The notes: a model not told the origin generated them from the sequence alone. A DNA stretch of 64,000 nucleotides from an uncultured delta proteobacterium (GCA_903907985.1 CAIVQG010000056.1:1-64000); one strand, 5' to 3'; positions 36,546 to 48,592 are shown, counted from the first letter of the stretch. Program-made: numbers and translations.

Positions 36546-37817
36546 TCATTTCTTGCCTAACCTGATCGCGCAGAGCTCGCCGCACATTGTACAGCCTTCA
36601 TCCTCGGCGCTTTTACTTTTCTCTAAAAGCGATTCTACTTTTTGGGGATCGATGGATAAATCCACCTGCCCCTGCCAATCAAAGTTTTTACGGCATTCGG
36701 ACATTTTTCTATCGCGTTCCCGTGCACCGGGTAGGCCTTTGGCGATATCGGCAATATGAGCGGCAATACGCGCAGCAATCACGCCTTCCCGGACATCATC
36801 AAGCGTCGGCAGGCGCAAGTGTTCCGCGGGAGTGACATAGCAAAGGAAATCGGCACCGGCTGCTCCGGCGATTGCCCCGCCGATGGCTGATGTAATATGG
36901 TCGTAACCAGGTGCAATATCAGTGGGCAGCGGCCCCAGAACATAAAACGGAGCGCCCTGGCATATTTTTTTCTGCAATCTGATATTCGCTTCAATATCTC
37001 TGATGGGAACATGGCCGGGGCCTTCAATCATTACCTGGACTCCTGCCGCCCTCGCCCGTGAGGCGAGTTCACCTAAAATAATCAATTCCTGCAATTGCCC
37101 GCGATCGGTGGCATCGGCATTAGCCCCAGGACGCAGCCCATCTCCGAGACTCAAAACCATATCATATTGCCGCGCGATTTCCACCAGACGGTCATATTGT
37201 TCGTATAAAGGGTTTTCCTGATCATTGCACGCCATCCAGTTGGCAGTCATGGCACCGCCCCGGCTGACTATACCCAAAACCCGGCCCTGCTTTTCTATTG
37301 CCGCCACACTCAGCCTTGTCACACCGCAGTGAACGGTAATGAAATCAACTCCATCACGCCCGTTTTCTTCAATCACGGCAAACATATCATCGGCAGTCAT
37401 CTCCGAAATGGCTTTCTTTTGGGCAATAATTTTACAGGCAGCCTGATAAATCGGCACTGTACCGATAGCTACTTTTGCCTTTTCCATAATTGCTTTTCTG
37501 ATCGCCGCCAGATCACCGCCCGTGGAAAGATCCATAACAGCATCGGCCCCTGCGTCGGTAGCAATTTTGAGCTTAGCTAATTCCACGCTCAAATCGATAT
37601 GATCTATTGACGTTCCAATATTGGCATTTACCTTTGTACGCAGGCCTTCACCAATAGCCAGAGGCTCAATACTAACGTGATTAACATTACGACAGAGGAC
37701 TATTGTTCCTTTTTCTATCCCCTGCCGGATAAACGCAGGCGTTACACATTCTGTCTTTGCACAAACTTTCATTTCTTCCGAGATCAGCCCTTTACGGGCC
37801 ATTTCCAATTGCGTCAT
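36546..37817 (-). CDS. thiC: phosphomethylpyrimidine synthase ThiC
   Basis: Radical-SAM-like enzyme that rearranges aminoimidazole ribotide into hydroxymethylpyrimidine phosphate, the pyrimidine half of thiamin. Typical blocks are NANIGTS, MDLSTGGDL, TVHCGVTR, VSRGGA, MIEGPGHVPI, GPLPTDIAPGYDHITSAIG, and the C-terminal cluster motif CTMCGELC (CX2CX4C). The 424 residues correspond to the short form without the N-terminal extension. The ATG at 37817 follows GGAGG. It lies in the riboswitch-controlled thiN-thiD-thiC operon. Confidence 0.97.
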   Translation of the reverse strand: MTQLEMARKGLISEEMKVCAKTECVTPAFIRQGIEKGTIVLCRNVNHVSIEPLAIGEGLRTKVNANIGTSIDHIDLSVELAKLKIATDAGADAVMDLSTGGDLAAIRKAIMEKAKVAIGTVPIYQAACKIIAQKKAISEMTADDMFAVIEENGRDGVDFITVHCGVTRLSVAAIEKQGRVLGIVSRGGAMTANWMACNDQENPLYEQYDRLVEIARQYDMVLSLGDGLRPGANADATDRGQLQELIILGELASRARAAGVQVMIEGPGHVPIRDIEANIRLQKKICQGAPFYVLGPLPTDIAPGYDHITSAIGGAIAGAAGADFLCYVTPAEHLRLPTLDDVREGVIAARIAAHIADIAKGLPGARERDRKMSECRKNFDWQGQVDLSIDPQKVESLLEKSKSAEDEGCTMCGELCAIRLGKK

Positions 37818-37895
37818 TTTTTCCTCCAAATACTTCGCCTTTATAAAGACGTTTAATTGTTTTCCGATCGTTGCACCACAAATTGTGCACTTTGT

Positions 37896-38702
37896 TTACT
37901 TTTTCAATTTTCCGGCCAGAGCATTGACTGAGCCATGCCCTGCCCCCAGGCTTACAGAATTTATTATGGCTGAAGTAACCATTTTTTTCGCCAGCTTTGC
38001 CGCAGTCGCAACATCTTTTCCCAAAGCAAGGTTTGCCGCCAGCGCTGAGGCATATGTGCAACCAGTACCATGGGACTCACGTAAGTCAATGCGCGGCGAC
38101 GAATATTCCTGATAAATTTCCCCGTTAAAAAGAATATCGACAACTTCTTTTTGTTTGCTGTTCTCCAGATGACCCCCTTTAATAAGAACATTTTGCACAC
38201 CAAGCTTACGAATAAGACACGCTGCTTTCTTCATTGCGCCAACAGACTTGATTTCTATCCCGGCTAATTTCTCCGCCTCCGGAATATTGGGAGTAATAAC
38301 CATGGCCAGAGGAAGCAGTTTTTTCACCAATGCCTGGCGCGCCTTAGCCAGCATGAGATTCCGTCCGCCTTTGGCCAGCATTACCGGATCGACAACTAAT
38401 TTTTCGATATGATATTCCCTGATCTTCCCGGCAACGGCGTTGACAATACCCGCCGTCAACAACATACCGGTTTTTACTGCATCCGCCCCAATATCATTCA
38501 ATACTGCGTCCATTTGTCTTCCGACAAATTCCGGAGTAATCTCCAATATATCCTGTACGCCGAAAGTATTTTGTGCTGTAACCGCCGTAATTACACTCAA
38601 ACCGTAGCATCCGCAGGCGCTCACTGCCTTCAAATCAGCCTGAATACCAGCTCCGCAGCTGGAATCCGATCCGCCAATACACAATACCTTAACAGGTTTC
38701 AT
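37896..38702 (-). CDS. thiD: hydroxymethylpyrimidine/phosphomethylpyrimidine kinase ThiD
   Basis: Phosphorylates HMP twice to HMP-PP for ThiE. Ribokinase-like, with VLCIGGSDSSCGAGIQADLKA at the start, TAVTAQNT, and the C-terminal anion hole DLRESHGTGCTYASALAA. Length 268. I use the ATG at 38702 (GGAGG ten bases upstream, two bases after the thiN stop), not the longer open frame. The tight spacing shows cotranscription with thiN. Confidence 0.96.
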   Translation of the reverse strand: MKPVKVLCIGGSDSSCGAGIQADLKAVSACGCYGLSVITAVTAQNTFGVQDILEITPEFVGRQMDAVLNDIGADAVKTGMLLTAGIVNAVAGKIREYHIEKLVVDPVMLAKGGRNLMLAKARQALVKKLLPLAMVITPNIPEAEKLAGIEIKSVGAMKKAACLIRKLGVQNVLIKGGHLENSKQKEVVDILFNGEIYQEYSSPRIDLRESHGTGCTYASALAANLALGKDVATAAKLAKKMVTSAIINSVSLGAGHGSVNALAGKLKK

Positions 38703-38704
38703 AA

Positions 38705-39376
38705 TTAAACGGCCTCCGGAAAATAATCTTTTAACCAGTACCGAATAACCAGAAGACTGCCGGAACAAATATTAATTGTCGCCTGAGAACTGACAATGAT
38801 ATTGCTGATACCGCGTGGATTAATCATTTCCATGGATTCGTTATCCAAAGCATATTTAAAACCATGCAGCAATACACCTTCTGCTGGGGAACTTAAGGCA
38901 AACAGAGATACTGTCTGTCCCACTGCCTGCATAAAAGATATTTCTTTTTCAACGACATAAGTTTCACAGTATTCATCAATTAAACTGGTTTTTATTCCTG
39001 CTTTTTGGGCAATTTTAAGCAAAAACAAATTGGCCAGAGCATGATCAATCCTGCCACCCAGGGCGCCCCATATTTCAACTGCCTCCGCCTTTAATCCCAG
39101 AGCATATTCCAGGGCCAGTTGAGTATCGGTAGCATCTTTGTCCGGGGGGTATTTTATTACTTTCACTCCGCCAGCCGCATAATCATCCAACCTGCCTGCA
39201 TTCGCCGAATCCATATCACCCATAATAACATCAGGCTGAATATTCAACTTCGCTAAATGACGAATGCCGCCATCACAGCAAATCGTCAGAAAGCTGTCCA
39301 TTGCAGCCAGTCGCTTCTGATAAAAACCGGGATCACCCAGTCGTCCATTACTTATTATGATTATTTTTTTAGTCAT
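38705..39376 (-). CDS. thiN: thiamine pyrophosphokinase
   Basis: Converts free thiamin to TPP with ATP. It has the family core TICCDGGIRHLAKLNIQPDVIMGDMDS, YPPDKDATDTQLAL and GALGGRIDHALANLFLL. At 223 residues it has the usual length. No clear ribosome site is visible before the ATG at 39376. First gene after the TPP riboswitch and terminator. Because this enzyme uses thiamin and not thiamin phosphate, the product of ThiE must be dephosphorylated first (see the HAD gene at 43111). Confidence 0.94.
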   Translation of the reverse strand: MTKKIIIISNGRLGDPGFYQKRLAAMDSFLTICCDGGIRHLAKLNIQPDVIMGDMDSANAGRLDDYAAGGVKVIKYPPDKDATDTQLALEYALGLKAEAVEIWGALGGRIDHALANLFLLKIAQKAGIKTSLIDEYCETYVVEKEISFMQAVGQTVSLFALSSPAEGVLLHGFKYALDNESMEMINPRGISNIIVSSQATINICSGSLLVIRYWLKDYFPEAV

Positions 39377-39537: not shown

Positions 39538-39559
39538 AAATCATTTTCGCAATTGCCAA

Positions 39560-39627
39560 TCCCTACGCCAGCATTACCCGGGTCAGGTTCAAAGGGTATA
39601 ATCTCAGCCGTATCCGGCACCCCTGTT
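39560..39627 (-). promoter_or_regulatory. TPP (THI-box) riboswitch of the thiN-thiD-thiC operon
   Basis: Read on the minus strand it has the conserved blocks GGGGTGCCGG, CTGAGA (39607-39602), ACCCTTTGAACCTGA and the pyrophosphate-arm end GGTAATGCTGGCGTAGGGA. These are the strictly conserved TPP-aptamer elements. Position and order ahead of thiN-thiD-thiC confirm the role: feedback shut-off of pyrimidine synthesis by TPP. Confidence 0.96.
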
Positions 39628-39801
39628 TGATATGTTTATTACAATACTGCCAAAAAAGCAATTTGTTTAATTCTAAGGTTATTTTTCCAGCAGCGCTTTT
39701 TCAAGGCGTTGCCGAGTTTCTATTTGACTTGTGACCTACATTTTCTTAGTCTGTTTGCGTAGGAATAGTGATAAGGGAATTATCTGCCGGAGCAGACCAG
39801 A

Positions 39802-41953: not shown

Positions 41954-43135
41954 ATGAAGAGACAATTTTCGGCAATCTTGATTTTAGCCCTTTGCGCAAT
42001 GTTTTTAATTTCTTTTAATGTTGCGACAACCGCATTTGCCCAACCGCAGCCCAACCAATTCCAATCTTATCTTAAGTTGGGCATTAAAAAAGCTTTTAAT
42101 CTGGAATTTTCTAGTGCCAATACTTATTTACAAAAAGCTGTAGAGTTGGACCCCGAAAACCCAACCGGATATGCATTCTGGGCCATGATTAATTTATTTG
42201 CTTATGAAATGAGTTTTGATGAAAATATCCGCAAGTATAATCAAGATTCCATGCTCCGCTATGTTGACGAAGCTCTTACCAGGGGAGAAAAAAGAATTGG
42301 AAAAAATCCCAAAGACAGCAATGTTTATCTGGCTATGGCTATGGCGAAAATCGCCAGATTTAACTTTGCAAGCCATAACAAACAATATGTCAGCATGGCA
42401 CGTGATGCCTCTAATATCTGGGAGTATCTGGAAAAAGCCAAAGAGATTAACCCGCATAATTACGACCTCTATTTTCTCATGGGTTCATTTCGTTACCATA
42501 TTGATCATCTCCCCGGCCTGACCCGTTTCCTGTCTTCGCTGATAGTCACTTCCGGAGACAGGCTCAAAGGGCTGCAGGAATTGGAATTGGCGGCACAAAA
42601 AGGTGATCTCCTCAAACAACTGGCAATGTCGGAACTCTCTTCTGATTATTTGAATTTTGAGAAGCAGCCGGCAAGAGCTTTACCGATTATTATGGAATTA
42701 AAGGAACTATTTCCCAATAATTATAATTTTTCTTTTGCTCTGGCTAACACTTTTTCCGATCTCCATCGCTTTGAAGATGCTTTTAATATCGCCCGGGAGA
42801 TTGAAAAAAATATCCGGACAGGACTTCCTCCCTTTGCCCCTCAACTCCAACCGCGTCATGATCAGTTAATGGGAAGAATTTTTTTCACGCAGGGCAATTA
42901 CGCCAAAGCTGACGAATATTTCCAGAAGGCTATTAAAGATACAAATCCTTATAATGCCCGGGTGCGAGCTTGGGCATATCTCCGGCTGGGAATGATCAAC
43001 GATATCCGCAAAGAAAGGAAAAAAGCCCAAGAGTATTATTCCAAAGCTCTGGATGTTAAGAATGGAGAAGGAACTGCTCAGATCGAGGCCAAGAAATATC
43101 TGGAAACTCCCTATCTGCCCCCGCAAAAAAGTTGA
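41954..43135 (+). CDS. exported TPR protein
   Basis: 393 residues beginning with a signal peptide (MKRQFSAILILALCAMFLISFNVATTAFA). The rest is built of TPR-like helix pairs (LKLGIKKAFNLEFSSANTYLQKAVELDPENPTGYAF at the start; GRIFFTQGNYAKADEYFQKAIKDTNPYNA near the end). Probably a periplasmic scaffold; partner unknown. The ATG at 41954 is preceded by GGTGG; an in-frame GTG at 41945 is also possible. The last 25 bases overlap the convergent HAD gene. Confidence 0.72.
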   Translation: MKRQFSAILILALCAMFLISFNVATTAFAQPQPNQFQSYLKLGIKKAFNLEFSSANTYLQKAVELDPENPTGYAFWAMINLFAYEMSFDENIRKYNQDSMLRYVDEALTRGEKRIGKNPKDSNVYLAMAMAKIARFNFASHNKQYVSMARDASNIWEYLEKAKEINPHNYDLYFLMGSFRYHIDHLPGLTRFLSSLIVTSGDRLKGLQELELAAQKGDLLKQLAMSELSSDYLNFEKQPARALPIIMELKELFPNNYNFSFALANTFSDLHRFEDAFNIAREIEKNIRTGLPPFAPQLQPRHDQLMGRIFFTQGNYAKADEYFQKAIKDTNPYNARVRAWAYLRLGMINDIRKERKKAQEYYSKALDVKNGEGTAQIEAKKYLETPYLPPQKS

Positions 43136-43911
43136 TCAATTATTGCCGATGTGTCGGCAATGGACCCGCTTATATTTTCATCATTGACGGCAAAAGAAAT
43201 GCTTTCAACATCAGACGCAAAGACTGTCCGCAATAGCTGAACCGTCATCTTCCTGCGCTCACTGACCTTTACCGGATTGCCGTAGGCATCACCTTCTTGT
43301 TCGTTTTGCCCAAAATCATCCACGAGCAAGACACGGCTATAATTTTGCCACAAGACATTCTGCACAGTCTGCCAGAATTGTTGTTGGTCTTTATGCATGC
43401 CCAAATCAGCAGAATTGGCCACAGCAAAATTTCTTTTAACATCAGCGCTAAGTGGTATTGCCGGGATATTCCATTGGCCAAGATTTTTAATTATTGCTTC
43501 TGTTGCTTCGGCATAATGGTCGGTGGCGATAACCACATCTACGGATTTATCCGACCAAAGTTGTTGCAGGATCAATCGCCAATTTTCATCAATTCCGGAA
43601 TGATCAAAATAGGCTTCAACAAAATTTCCTGCTGCCCGGGAGATTTCTCTCTGGTTCACAATGGCCTTTTCCGGAAACAATTCTGCAATGCGTTCCTGCA
43701 TTACTCTTTTGTATCCCCGCCTGGTAGTACTGCCTTCCAACCAGGTTGCATTAACTATCTCCCAGAATAAAGATGCGCTATCCACGCCCAGCTTAAACAA
43801 GCCGCTGATTTGCAAATGCTGCATCAAGCTGTCCGGACGGGAAAATGCGGCGGCAGCAAGACTGAGAGTTCCGGAATAATCAAAAATGATTAGTTTATCG
43901 GGCAATGCCAT
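43111..43911 (-). CDS. HAD-superfamily hydrolase in the thiamin operon, candidate thiamin-phosphate phosphatase
   Basis: 266 residues with HAD motif I IFDYSGTLS (nucleophile Asp kept, the usual second Asp replaced by Ser), motif II VVIATDHY, and motif IV VLLVDDFGQNEQEGDAYGNP. The start ATG overlaps the thiE stop as TAATG, so it is cotranslated with thiE under the TPP riboswitch. ThiN elsewhere in the window needs free thiamin while ThiE makes thiamin phosphate, so a phosphatase is required unless thiL exists elsewhere. This role is inference. The D-x-S motif is unusual for a plain phosphatase and leaves the chemistry uncertain. Confidence 0.75.
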   Translation of the reverse strand: MALPDKLIIFDYSGTLSLAAAAFSRPDSLMQHLQISGLFKLGVDSASLFWEIVNATWLEGSTTRRGYKRVMQERIAELFPEKAIVNQREISRAAGNFVEAYFDHSGIDENWRLILQQLWSDKSVDVVIATDHYAEATEAIIKNLGQWNIPAIPLSADVKRNFAVANSADLGMHKDQQQFWQTVQNVLWQNYSRVLLVDDFGQNEQEGDAYGNPVKVSERRKMTVQLLRTVFASDVESISFAVNDENISGSIADTSAIIDQLFCGGR

Positions 43912-44540
43912 TACCTCGTGAGTAAAGCCGTCTTAATTATGCAGCCGAGTTTATGCGCGGCTGCTTCCGGATCAGGCGCGGCACAGATGGCCGAAACTAC
44001 CGCAACACAATCGGCGCCAGCCGCAATGGTTTCGCGGATATTGGATTCATTGAGACCACCGATAGCAACCAGAGGATGACGGCTGAATGCTTTTATTTTA
44101 GCCAACCCGGCAAGTCCCCAGGCGTCCTTGGTATCGGTTTTGGTCGGTGTTTCAAAGACAGGGCTGACACCGATATAATTCACATCCAGTTTTTGGCTCT
44201 CTTCGACATCAGCCCATGTTTCCACAGATAAGCCGATGATAGCTTTTGGTCCCAGAAGCTGCCGGGCAATTGCATAGGGCATGTCATCCTGACCAATGTG
44301 TACTCCATCGGCACCGCAGGCCAGGGCGACGTCAAGACGATCATTGATAATCAAAGGAATTCTGTATGGTTCTAAAGACTTCTTTATTCTTTGCGCCTCA
44401 CTCACAAACAAGCGCGTGGAAATGTCTTTTTCCCGCAATTGAACACAGGATACGCCGCCCTTTACTGCCTGCAGAACAACGTCTTCCATGGACTTTTGTC
44501 CGCACAAACCGCGGTCAGTTACCAGATATAATCCTTGCAT
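43911..44540 (-). CDS. thiE: thiamine-phosphate synthase ThiE
   Basis: Joins HMP-PP with thiazole phosphate to give thiamin phosphate. TIM-barrel enzyme with GLYLVTDRGLC, VQLREKDISTR, LIINDRLDVAL, ADGVHIGQDDMP, IGLSVETWADV, VSPVFETPTKTD and VAIGGLNESN, all family hallmarks. Length 209. The ATG at 44540 is preferred over a GTG at 44543 that overlaps the thiM stop; GAGGAA lies just ahead. Middle gene of thiM-thiE-HAD. Confidence 0.96.
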   Translation of the reverse strand: MQGLYLVTDRGLCGQKSMEDVVLQAVKGGVSCVQLREKDISTRLFVSEAQRIKKSLEPYRIPLIINDRLDVALACGADGVHIGQDDMPYAIARQLLGPKAIIGLSVETWADVEESQKLDVNYIGVSPVFETPTKTDTKDAWGLAGLAKIKAFSRHPLVAIGGLNESNIRETIAAGADCVAVVSAICAAPDPEAAAHKLGCIIKTALLTR

Positions 44541-44542
44541 CA

Positions 44543-45346
44543 CTATTCCTCAATCTTCAGGCGCGAAGTTATCTCAGCTTCGGATAACCGATAAAGATGA
44601 TCCAGAAAATGCATTTGCATACTCCCGGGCCCCACGGCTTTTTCGGCAGCTATTTCTCCGGCAATCCCCATAACAGCCATGGCCTTGACCGTCGCGGCAA
44701 CATAATCTTTTTCCACTGCGGCAAAGGCGCCACAAAGAGCGGAGGCCGTACAACCAAGTCCGGTGACTCTGGTCATCAGAGGGTGGCCATTGTTGACCTT
44801 GACAATTTGTTTACCTTCTATAATGTAATCCGTCGCCCCGCTGACACAAACCACACAATTGTATGTTTCACTTAATTTTTGCGCTATGGTAATAGCATCA
44901 TCCGATAAGGCAGCACTGTCCACACCTTTCGTCTTTGTTTTGTCATCATACAGCGCCATGATCTCCGAGGCATTACCGCGGATAATCGCCGGCGAATCAG
45001 TGGCAATCAATTCCCGTGCTGTTTGAGTGCGGTAACTTGTCGCCCCGACACCAACAGGATCAAGGATGACCGGAATACCATTTTTCCGAGCCTGCGCCGC
45101 CGCCTTCAACATGGAATAAATCCACCGTTCACTCAACGTCCCGATATTGATAACCAGAGAGGAAGCAATGTTCACCATTTCTTCTACTTCTTCTGGGGCA
45201 TGCGCCATGACCGGCGACGCGCCAATCGCCAGTAGCGCATTGGCCGTATTATTCATTACCACATAATTGGTAATGTTATGAACAACCGGCGCTTGATGCC
45301 GGATCACTTCAATTGATTTGTAAATTTCCACTGCGTTGATTTTCAT
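44543..45346 (-). CDS. thiM: hydroxyethylthiazole kinase ThiM
   Basis: Salvages hydroxyethylthiazole by phosphorylation, feeding ThiE. Ribokinase-like, with VHNITNYVVMNNTANALLAIGASPVMAHA at the start, ILDPVGVGATSYRT, IIRGNASEIMAL, and MTRVTGLGCTASALCGAFAAV. 267 residues. GAGGAG lies upstream of the ATG. First gene after the second TPP riboswitch; ends with TAG against thiE. Confidence 0.96.
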   Translation of the reverse strand: MKINAVEIYKSIEVIRHQAPVVHNITNYVVMNNTANALLAIGASPVMAHAPEEVEEMVNIASSLVINIGTLSERWIYSMLKAAAQARKNGIPVILDPVGVGATSYRTQTARELIATDSPAIIRGNASEIMALYDDKTKTKGVDSAALSDDAITIAQKLSETYNCVVCVSGATDYIIEGKQIVKVNNGHPLMTRVTGLGCTASALCGAFAAVEKDYVAATVKAMAVMGIAGEIAAEKAVGPGSMQMHFLDHLYRLSEAEITSRLKIEE

Positions 45347-45413
45347 AATTATCTGCTCTCCTCAAATTTTATTTTACGTAATTAAGGGGCAACAATCAAT
45401 CACTATTCCCTAG

Positions 45414-45457
45414 CAAACAAAACCCTTCCTGCCTGTTTAAAGAGGCCGAAAGGGTTT
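45414..45457 (-). terminator. intrinsic terminator between second TPP riboswitch and thiM
   Basis: Minus strand AAACCCTT (45457-45450) pairs with AAGGGTTT, with an inner CCT/AGG pairing, followed by TTTTGTTT. Likely expression platform of the riboswitch. Confidence 0.85.
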
Positions 45458-45479
45458 AATAATGCCTTGCTCTTTCTCC

Positions 45480-45553
45480 TCCCTACGCCAGCATTACCTG
45501 GATCAGGTTCAACGGGTATGATCTCAGACATCTAAGAATAGATGCCACCCCCA
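45480..45553 (-). promoter_or_regulatory. TPP (THI-box) riboswitch of the thiM-thiE-HAD operon
   Basis: Minus strand blocks GGGGGTGGC, CTGAGA, ACCCGTTGAACCTGATC and GGTAATGCTGGCGTAGGGA. It has a longer variable P3-type insertion than the copy at 39560. Followed by the terminator at 45414. Confidence 0.96.
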
Positions 45554-45566
45554 ATTTGTTGTTTGA

Positions 45567-47514: not shown

Positions 47515-48234
47515 TCAACCCAACCGCTGTGTATCCCATGTCTCGCGGGGTTGTCTTTGTGCTTTAAACAGTATTGAATTACCATCAGGATAAGTTGTTT
47601 TCTTGATGTGATATGATGATTTGTTATCCTGACTGTGTGCAACGACAATCTCACCTATGGTTGTTTCCCGCTGGGTGTCCAGCCGCCCTATGGAAAGAAT
47701 CGTCGGCCCGCGGAAATTATCCGGTTTAAAAATGCTTTGTCCGTCTTTGATGAGTGTTATAAGGCGCTCATTTTCTTCCTTGTTACGCCCCAGAATAATC
47801 TTGAGGTCGGGATGCAGACGGTAATGACGGCCGATAGTCAAAAGGACTAAATCAGTATGTATGTAATCGGACGTGTGATCGAAAAGATCACGCAGACGGG
47901 CGGCAATGACTTTGTCGGTCAGTAAACATCCGCCTGCGGGACAGGGATAATCCGTCACGCCCAAATGCTCGGCAAGCGCAAATTGCTCCTTGCGGCCCCG
48001 CCCGGAGATATTGAGCAGTTTATCCCGATCCACAATCCCTTCGCGTTCCGGCAGCGTCGGAGCGAAATGTTGTGCCGAAAGGGGGCGAAGGATCAGGTCG
48101 GCCAAACCGCTTTCCTTTTCAATCAGACGAATGGTATGGCGCTGCTGGGACATGGGACGCTGTCCGAGGACTTCACCGGTAATAACAAAAGATGCTCCCA
48201 TCTCAGGCATCATCTCTTTGACCTTGCGTAACAT
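47515..48234 (-). CDS. C-terminal part of PP-loop (ThiI/MnmA-like) thiolation protein, after in-frame TAG
   Basis: 240 codons continuing in the same frame directly after a TAG at 48235-48237; its first codon is ATG (TAGATG). It contains FVITGEVLGQRPMSQQRHTI, LADLILRPLSAQHF, YPCPAGGCLLTDK and a C-terminal beta domain (TLVVLLTIGRHYRL-like segment), all normal for the second half of the large PP-loop tRNA-thiouridylase-like proteins found in anaerobes. Either it is translated by reinitiation at this ATG, or it is the dead end of a pseudogene. It carries the CxxxGGC region often used for catalysis or zinc binding. Confidence 0.7.
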   Translation of the reverse strand: MLRKVKEMMPEMGASFVITGEVLGQRPMSQQRHTIRLIEKESGLADLILRPLSAQHFAPTLPEREGIVDRDKLLNISGRGRKEQFALAEHLGVTDYPCPAGGCLLTDKVIAARLRDLFDHTSDYIHTDLVLLTIGRHYRLHPDLKIILGRNKEENERLITLIKDGQSIFKPDNFRGPTILSIGRLDTQRETTIGEIVVAHSQDNKSSYHIKKTTYPDGNSILFKAQRQPRETWDTQRLG

Positions 48235-48564
48235 CTAGATGCGGCAATCGATGCAGGCGTTCATGGCGCTTCCGTGTCCGTGCGGCGGGTTCTCCACCAT
48301 CTTGATGTAATCCATCCCTTTGTGGATCACATGAATGGGAACGGAAAATTCTTCGGCGACCTTTCGCGCCTGCATTTTACAGCCGGCAGTTTTGGGTGTG
48401 CAGTTGCAAAAGACGCTCGTAAAATGGACGGCTGTAACATCGATGCCCTGATCAATCATCAATTTCACAGCAAGAGTGCTGTCCAACCCTCCGGAGAGCA
48501 GAGCGACGGCCTTTTTATTGAGGTTCATATCAGTATATTTTCTTTCAATTCTTTTTCCATTCAT
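48235..48564 (-). CDS. N-terminal part of PP-loop (ThiI/MnmA-like) thiolation protein, ends at TAG
   Basis: Encodes the ATP-pyrophosphatase half: the PP-loop ALLSGGLDSTLAVKL, FCNCTPKTAGCK, and the conserved MNACIDCRI, where the frame hits TAG. In related full-length proteins the CIDC motif runs straight into the MLRK helix, so the stop sits inside the fold. The start could be ATG 48564 or ATG 48528; neither has a good ribosome site. It lies 28 bases after bioB. The PP-loop is intact, so the break is either recent, read through, or used to make two chains. Confidence 0.7.
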   Translation of the reverse strand: MNGKRIERKYTDMNLNKKAVALLSGGLDSTLAVKLMIDQGIDVTAVHFTSVFCNCTPKTAGCKMQARKVAEEFSVPIHVIHKGMDYIKMVENPPHGHGSAMNACIDCRI

Positions 48565-48592
48565 CACTGCAAGCAAGATATGTCCACATACA

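Follow-up and report, generated by a model that had tools for sequence, protein, structure and literature searches.

The thiamin genes in a 64,000-nucleotide stretch of DNA from an uncultured deltaproteobacterium (the window) raise the question of which enzyme removes the phosphate from thiamin monophosphate (TMP). These genes lie in two operons, each headed by a thiamin pyrophosphate (TPP) riboswitch (Table 1). As identified by sequence, ThiC and ThiD supply the pyrimidine, ThiM phosphorylates the thiazole, and ThiE joins the two to form TMP. Thiamin pyrophosphokinase (TPK, here the product of thiN) takes free thiamin as its substrate, not TMP. A sequence-only reading had noted a kinase of the ThiN type and a HAD gene that overlaps thiE within the same riboswitch operon, and had put forward the HAD protein as a good candidate for the missing phosphatase. 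Both observations were borne out: the kinase gene, a TIGR01378 match, lies in the second riboswitch operon, and the open reading frames (ORFs) follow the other RF00059 match in the order thiM, thiE, HAD. The candidacy is supported by the comparative genomics described below (neighboring genes, TPK without ThiL, and two kinds of TMP synthase), and we consider it probable (about 0.8) that the HAD gene encodes a dedicated TMP phosphatase.

Table 1. Thiamin genes, riboswitches, and HAD motifs located in the window
Feature	Positions	Strand	Evidence or remarks
TPP riboswitch, head of thiM-thiE-HAD operon	45462..45562	-	Rfam RF00059, 58.5 bits, gathering score 54.3
thiM, hydroxyethylthiazole kinase	44543..45346	-	TIGR00694, 301 bits; NF006830, 370 bits
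thiE, thiamin-phosphate synthase	43911..44543	-	start GTG 44543 or ATG 44540; TIGR00693, 216 bits, cutoff 145
HAD-fold protein, candidate thiamin-phosphate phosphatase	43111..43911	-	ORF, 266 aa; start overlaps thiE stop (TAATG)
Motif I, DYSGTL, residues 11-16	43864..43881	-	nucleophile D11, Ser13; in context F-D-Y-S-G-T-L
Motif II and family signature, TDHYAEAT, residues 130-137	43501..43524	-	alignment
Motif III, ANSADLGMHK, residues 165-174	43390..43419	-	Lys174 in 81/81
Motif IV, DDFGQNE, residues 198-204, predicted Mg2+ ligands	43300..43320	-	alignment
Second TPP riboswitch, ahead of thiN-thiD-thiC	39544..39635	-	RF00059, 65.2 bits
thiN (TPK), thiamin pyrophosphokinase	38705..39376	-	TIGR01378, 181 bits, cutoff 76.4
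thiD, HMP/HMP-P kinase	37896..38768	-	TIGR00097, 312 bits
thiC, HMP-P synthase	36546..37829	-	NF009895, 641 bits; TIGR00190, 615 bits

The window also holds, at 47515-48576 on the minus strand, two ORFs that resemble one ThiI-like/NFACT-R_2 protein of the thiouridylase type. They are split by a single in-frame TAG at about 48235 (CIDCRI-stop-MLRKVKE), which may reflect gene decay, an assembly error, or read-through.

The HAD protein had no significant match in Pfam, and its best NCBIfam match, TIGR01509 (HAD-IA), reached only 16.6 bits against a cutoff of 29.4. For 26 homologues, likewise, no Pfam or NCBIfam model exceeded its cutoff, and a profile search of solved structures found no credible sequence relative of the family. 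An AlphaFold2 model built from the family alignment was confident (pLDDT, 89.4; pTM, 0.87) and placed helices at residues 18 to 120, between motif I and the strand that ends in motif II. Foldseek matched the model to HAD enzymes whose helical cap is of the C1 type (E of about 1e-4), among them cis-epoxysuccinate hydrolase, L-2-haloacid dehalogenases, NANP/HDHD4, and phosphonatase; because the TM-scores were moderate (about 0.35 to 0.54), these matches fix the fold and not the function. The modeled fold, a Rossmann-like core with a helical cap, is that of HAD subfamily I (C1 cap), and the sequence contains the motifs of that subfamily, with the Asp of motif I, Thr/Ser in motif II, Lys in motif III, and an acidic pair in motif IV. 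We therefore base the HAD assignment on the motifs and the confident model, as Pfam and NCBIfam are blind to it.

Conservation was counted in an alignment of 81 family sequences, with the motif I positions scored over 80. The catalytic motifs were close to invariant. In motif II, D131, Y133, E135, and T137 were found in all 81 sequences, H132 in 80, and T130 in 79, with Ser in the remainder, while D198, D199, F200, G201, and E204 of motif IV were each present in 81/81. Further invariant residues were W50, W57, W111, W180, Y101, and Y210. Motif I had been read in the window as D-Y-S instead of D-x-D, and the alignment confirmed this: D11 occurred in 79/80 and Ser at the +2 position likewise in 79/80, with the other catalytic motifs intact, so D-x-S is a fixed trait of the family and no local oddity. 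The alignment also rules out a sequencing error or a one-off substitution. The DxDx[TV] pattern of HAD phosphatases is thus absent from the family, whose +2 position holds Ser in all scored members save one with Ala. In HAD phosphatases, the missing residue, the second motif I Asp, acts as general acid/base (PMC8069645). The sole non-Ser sequence seen, from a Spirochaetales member (L127, 3989-4858), has the motif DFAGTL, whose +2 residue is Ala, the one that phosphonatase also carries there.

When 84,980 species genomes were scanned, 97 relatives of the window protein came to light, of which 80 were kept. The scan was run with the peptide TDHYAEAT and with a Ser-containing pattern for motif I; members with neither would escape, and the TDHYAEAT pattern is independent of motif I. 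Judged by record title, the relatives come from at least five phyla. The commonest titles were Syntrophaceae, Syntrophus, Smithella, and Deltaproteobacteria, and others included Chloroflexi/Roseiflexus/Anaerolineae, Bacillota and Syntrophomonadaceae, Actinomycetota, Spirochaetales, Desulfobacterales, and HR16. On these sequence comparisons, the window protein is the founder of a widespread, unnamed family that has no Pfam or NCBIfam model.

The gene neighborhoods of the family are dominated by thiamin genes. A thi gene lay upstream on the same strand in 70 of the 80 loci, with a median gap of about 50 nucleotides. Most loci had the order thiM-thiE-HAD, and thiM-thiE-thiD-HAD, thiC-thiM-thiE-HAD, and thiC-HAD also occurred. 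Two loci (L109 and L128) had the order thiDN-thi4-thiC-HAD, with neither thiE nor thiM, and in L109 thiN/TPK lies ahead. In seven loci the HAD gene adjoined tenA, always as a separate gene; tenA was immediately upstream in 4 of the 10 loci that lacked an upstream thi gene (L098, L126, L131, and L133), and the order was thiD-tenA-HAD in L122, L123, and L127. A TPP riboswitch preceded the operon in 6 of the 17 loci scanned (L106, L118, L121, L122, L127, and L132), under titles of Bacillota/Syntrophomonadaceae, Actinomycetota, Chloroflexi, Spirochaetales, and HR16. The Roseiflexus record (L133) has tandem tenA-like ORFs (515-1198 and 1598-2281) ahead of the HAD gene, which share their start and their length; of the two, only the second was searched with Pfam.

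The sequence-only reading had called for a search for thiL elsewhere in the genome and for a comparison of thiN and thiL among relatives, and both came out in favor of its proposal. No match to thiL, which encodes the usual kinase, exceeded the TIGR01379 cutoff in the 3.4-Mb assembly (listed as 100% complete with 4.5% contamination), so TMP made by ThiE would have no ThiL to go to. The HAD protein itself differs from ThiL in fold. A divergent ThiL was also considered and rejected: by inspection of sequence features and neighbors, the three sub-cutoff matches to the thiL model read as the ThiL relatives HypE, SelD, and PurM. In one HAD-bearing relative (G081), the strongest match below the cutoff likewise reads as HypE. 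The HAD gene was present in 35 of the 99 relatives examined. None of these 35 had thiL over the cutoff, compared with 7 of the 64 HAD-free relatives. TPK exceeded its cutoff in 31 of the 35; the four others are perhaps incomplete assemblies. All 35 had a TMP synthase, and the five among them without thiE all had the unrelated ThiDN. In 20 HAD-bearing genomes from the wider scan, thiL was over the cutoff in none and TPK in 19. One of these genomes (G115) is apparently another listed genome (G071) again, because their TPK coordinates are identical, so about 54 distinct HAD-bearing genomes were tested, with thiL in none and TPK in about 49.

The background in the phylum is very different. Among 247 genomes that were at least 90% complete, 211 (85%) had thiL and 25 (10%) had TPK. 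The phylum genomes held three true members of the HAD family, all with TPK and without thiL; the remaining weak matches of the family alignment covered the motif III-IV region only. All of these counts take genomes regardless of common descent; Fisher tests inside the order gave 0.049 for thiL, 0.048 for TPK, and 0.025 for TMP synthase. The strength of the co-occurrence is in the wide contrast to the phylum and the repeated association across phyla. Since the HAD gene accompanies a TMP synthase and TPK in genomes without ThiL, it appears tied to the making of TMP where thiamin itself is pyrophosphorylated.

The HAD gene is not universal in such genomes. In 39 relatives (for example, G004, G005, G007, G010, and G016), a TMP synthase and TPK occurred with neither thiL nor the HAD gene, which indicates that TMP can be dephosphorylated by another phosphatase. 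Most members of the family to which the window's genome belongs (genera g2, g3, and g5) are among these relatives, and several that were inspected retain thiM-thiE without the HAD gene. No consistent replacement phosphatase was found beside thiE or thiN in the HAD-free relatives of that family. A canonical HAD gene with the motif DNDG adjoins thi4-thiE in two genomes (G013, L041 2257-2910; G025, L050 5654-6307) and is a possible replacement TMP phosphatase; the L041 copy matches PF13419, and the gene is absent at the same place in G009. In three loci from HAD-free relatives in the window's family, a gene for a HEAT-repeat protein stands tail-to-tail with thiE (L034, 2517-4142; L035, 1636-3996; L040, 4681-6273).

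Such relatives, which manage TMP without the family, would also suit a house-cleaning role, in which the HAD enzyme clears HMP-P, HET-P, or a damaged by-product while unspecific phosphatases dephosphorylate TMP, and the clustering of its gene with thiM, thiE, thiD, and thiC is also in keeping with that role. We consider it unlikely, however, because the HAD gene also sits in ThiDN operons with neither ThiM nor ThiE and is absent from ThiL genomes, which should generate these side substrates too. A dedicated TMP phosphatase, by comparison, would account for the link to two unrelated TMP synthases, TPK, TenA, and TPP riboswitches and for the avoidance of ThiL.

Two features count against any phosphatase role: the general acid/base Asp is absent, and the best structural neighbors include non-phosphatase HADs. 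Both would fit an enzyme whose Asp attacks carbon in the manner of haloacid dehalogenase or cis-epoxysuccinate hydrolase, for instance in thiamin degradation or salvage, since motif I is D-x-S with no second Asp and these two enzyme types rank high in Foldseek. Phosphatases (NANP/HDHD4) have similar Foldseek scores, though, and the conserved D198-D199 metal site and T130/K174 point to Mg2+-dependent phosphoryl chemistry; with the motif IV Asp pair fixed and pathway logic demanding a phosphatase, dehalogenase-like chemistry is very improbable. The loss of a normally essential Asp might alternatively mark a catalytically dead protein with a regulatory or scaffolding role toward ThiE or TPK. A pseudoenzyme would not be expected to keep all its other catalytic residues invariant, as this family does across 80 members from several phyla, and we give this explanation hardly any weight.

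As a TMP phosphatase, the HAD protein would convert TMP to thiamin and phosphate, TPK would then convert thiamin to TPP, and TPP would shut off both operons through their riboswitches. In the catalytic cycle suggested by motifs II to IV, D11, D198/D199, and the S13 backbone would bind Mg2+; D11 would attack the phosphate, T130 and K174 would stabilize it, and water would free the phospho-aspartate. Because no Asp is present at +2, acid/base catalysis must come from another invariant group. Candidates, by position only, are H132/E135 next to motif II and E204/Y210 next to motif IV; Y67 of the C1 cap is another, and the invariant Trp residues 50, 57, 111, and 180 could help to hold the cationic substrate. 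We lean slightly toward the broader view that a separate HAD family, with another invariant residue in place of the acid/base Asp, has come to perform TMP dephosphorylation in bacteria of the TPK type across several phyla.

Phosphonoacetaldehyde hydrolase and the P-type ATPases are HADs that carry out Mg2+-dependent phosphorus chemistry with Ala or Thr at +2. They act on other substrates and have no detected sequence relation to this HAD family, although phosphonatase is in the Foldseek list. The L-2-haloacid dehalogenases and cis-epoxysuccinate hydrolase, the top Foldseek matches, likewise combine a HAD core and a C1-type cap with no Asp at +2 (D18 and Q20 in the latter; PMC10869282), but identity is about 15%, and the family described here keeps the motif IV Asp pair. 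HAD enzymes of types IA and IB were published as the missing TMP phosphatase in 2016 (Hasnain et al., Biochem J 473:157, as cited in PMC4921024 and PMC4861732). That set, like the family described here, consists of HAD genes that cluster with thiamin genes or are fused to them, and the enzymes were proposed, and shown, to dephosphorylate TMP. In plants, a TenA-HAD fusion is a TMP phosphatase (Arabidopsis TH2/PALE1 and rice PALE1; PMC7868968). The HAD-TenA link and the proposed reaction are the same in the family here, whose seven tenA loci have separate genes where the plants have a fusion. The general idea of a HAD TMP phosphatase is known, and what appears to be new is the family, which may overlap with the 2016 set, and its D-x-S motif I. 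The sources of the bacterial enzymes of 2016 were reportedly Anaerotruncus, Dorea, and Syntrophomonas wolfei, and the 80 retained loci carry none of these names in their titles.

The analysis assigns a specific candidate gene to a pathway gap that syntrophic Deltaproteobacteria share with members of several other phyla, and makes available a family that annotation pipelines have overlooked. If shown to be active, the enzyme would represent a naturally occurring HAD phosphatase without the second motif I Asp and a test case for an alternative supply of acid/base catalysis in the superfamily.
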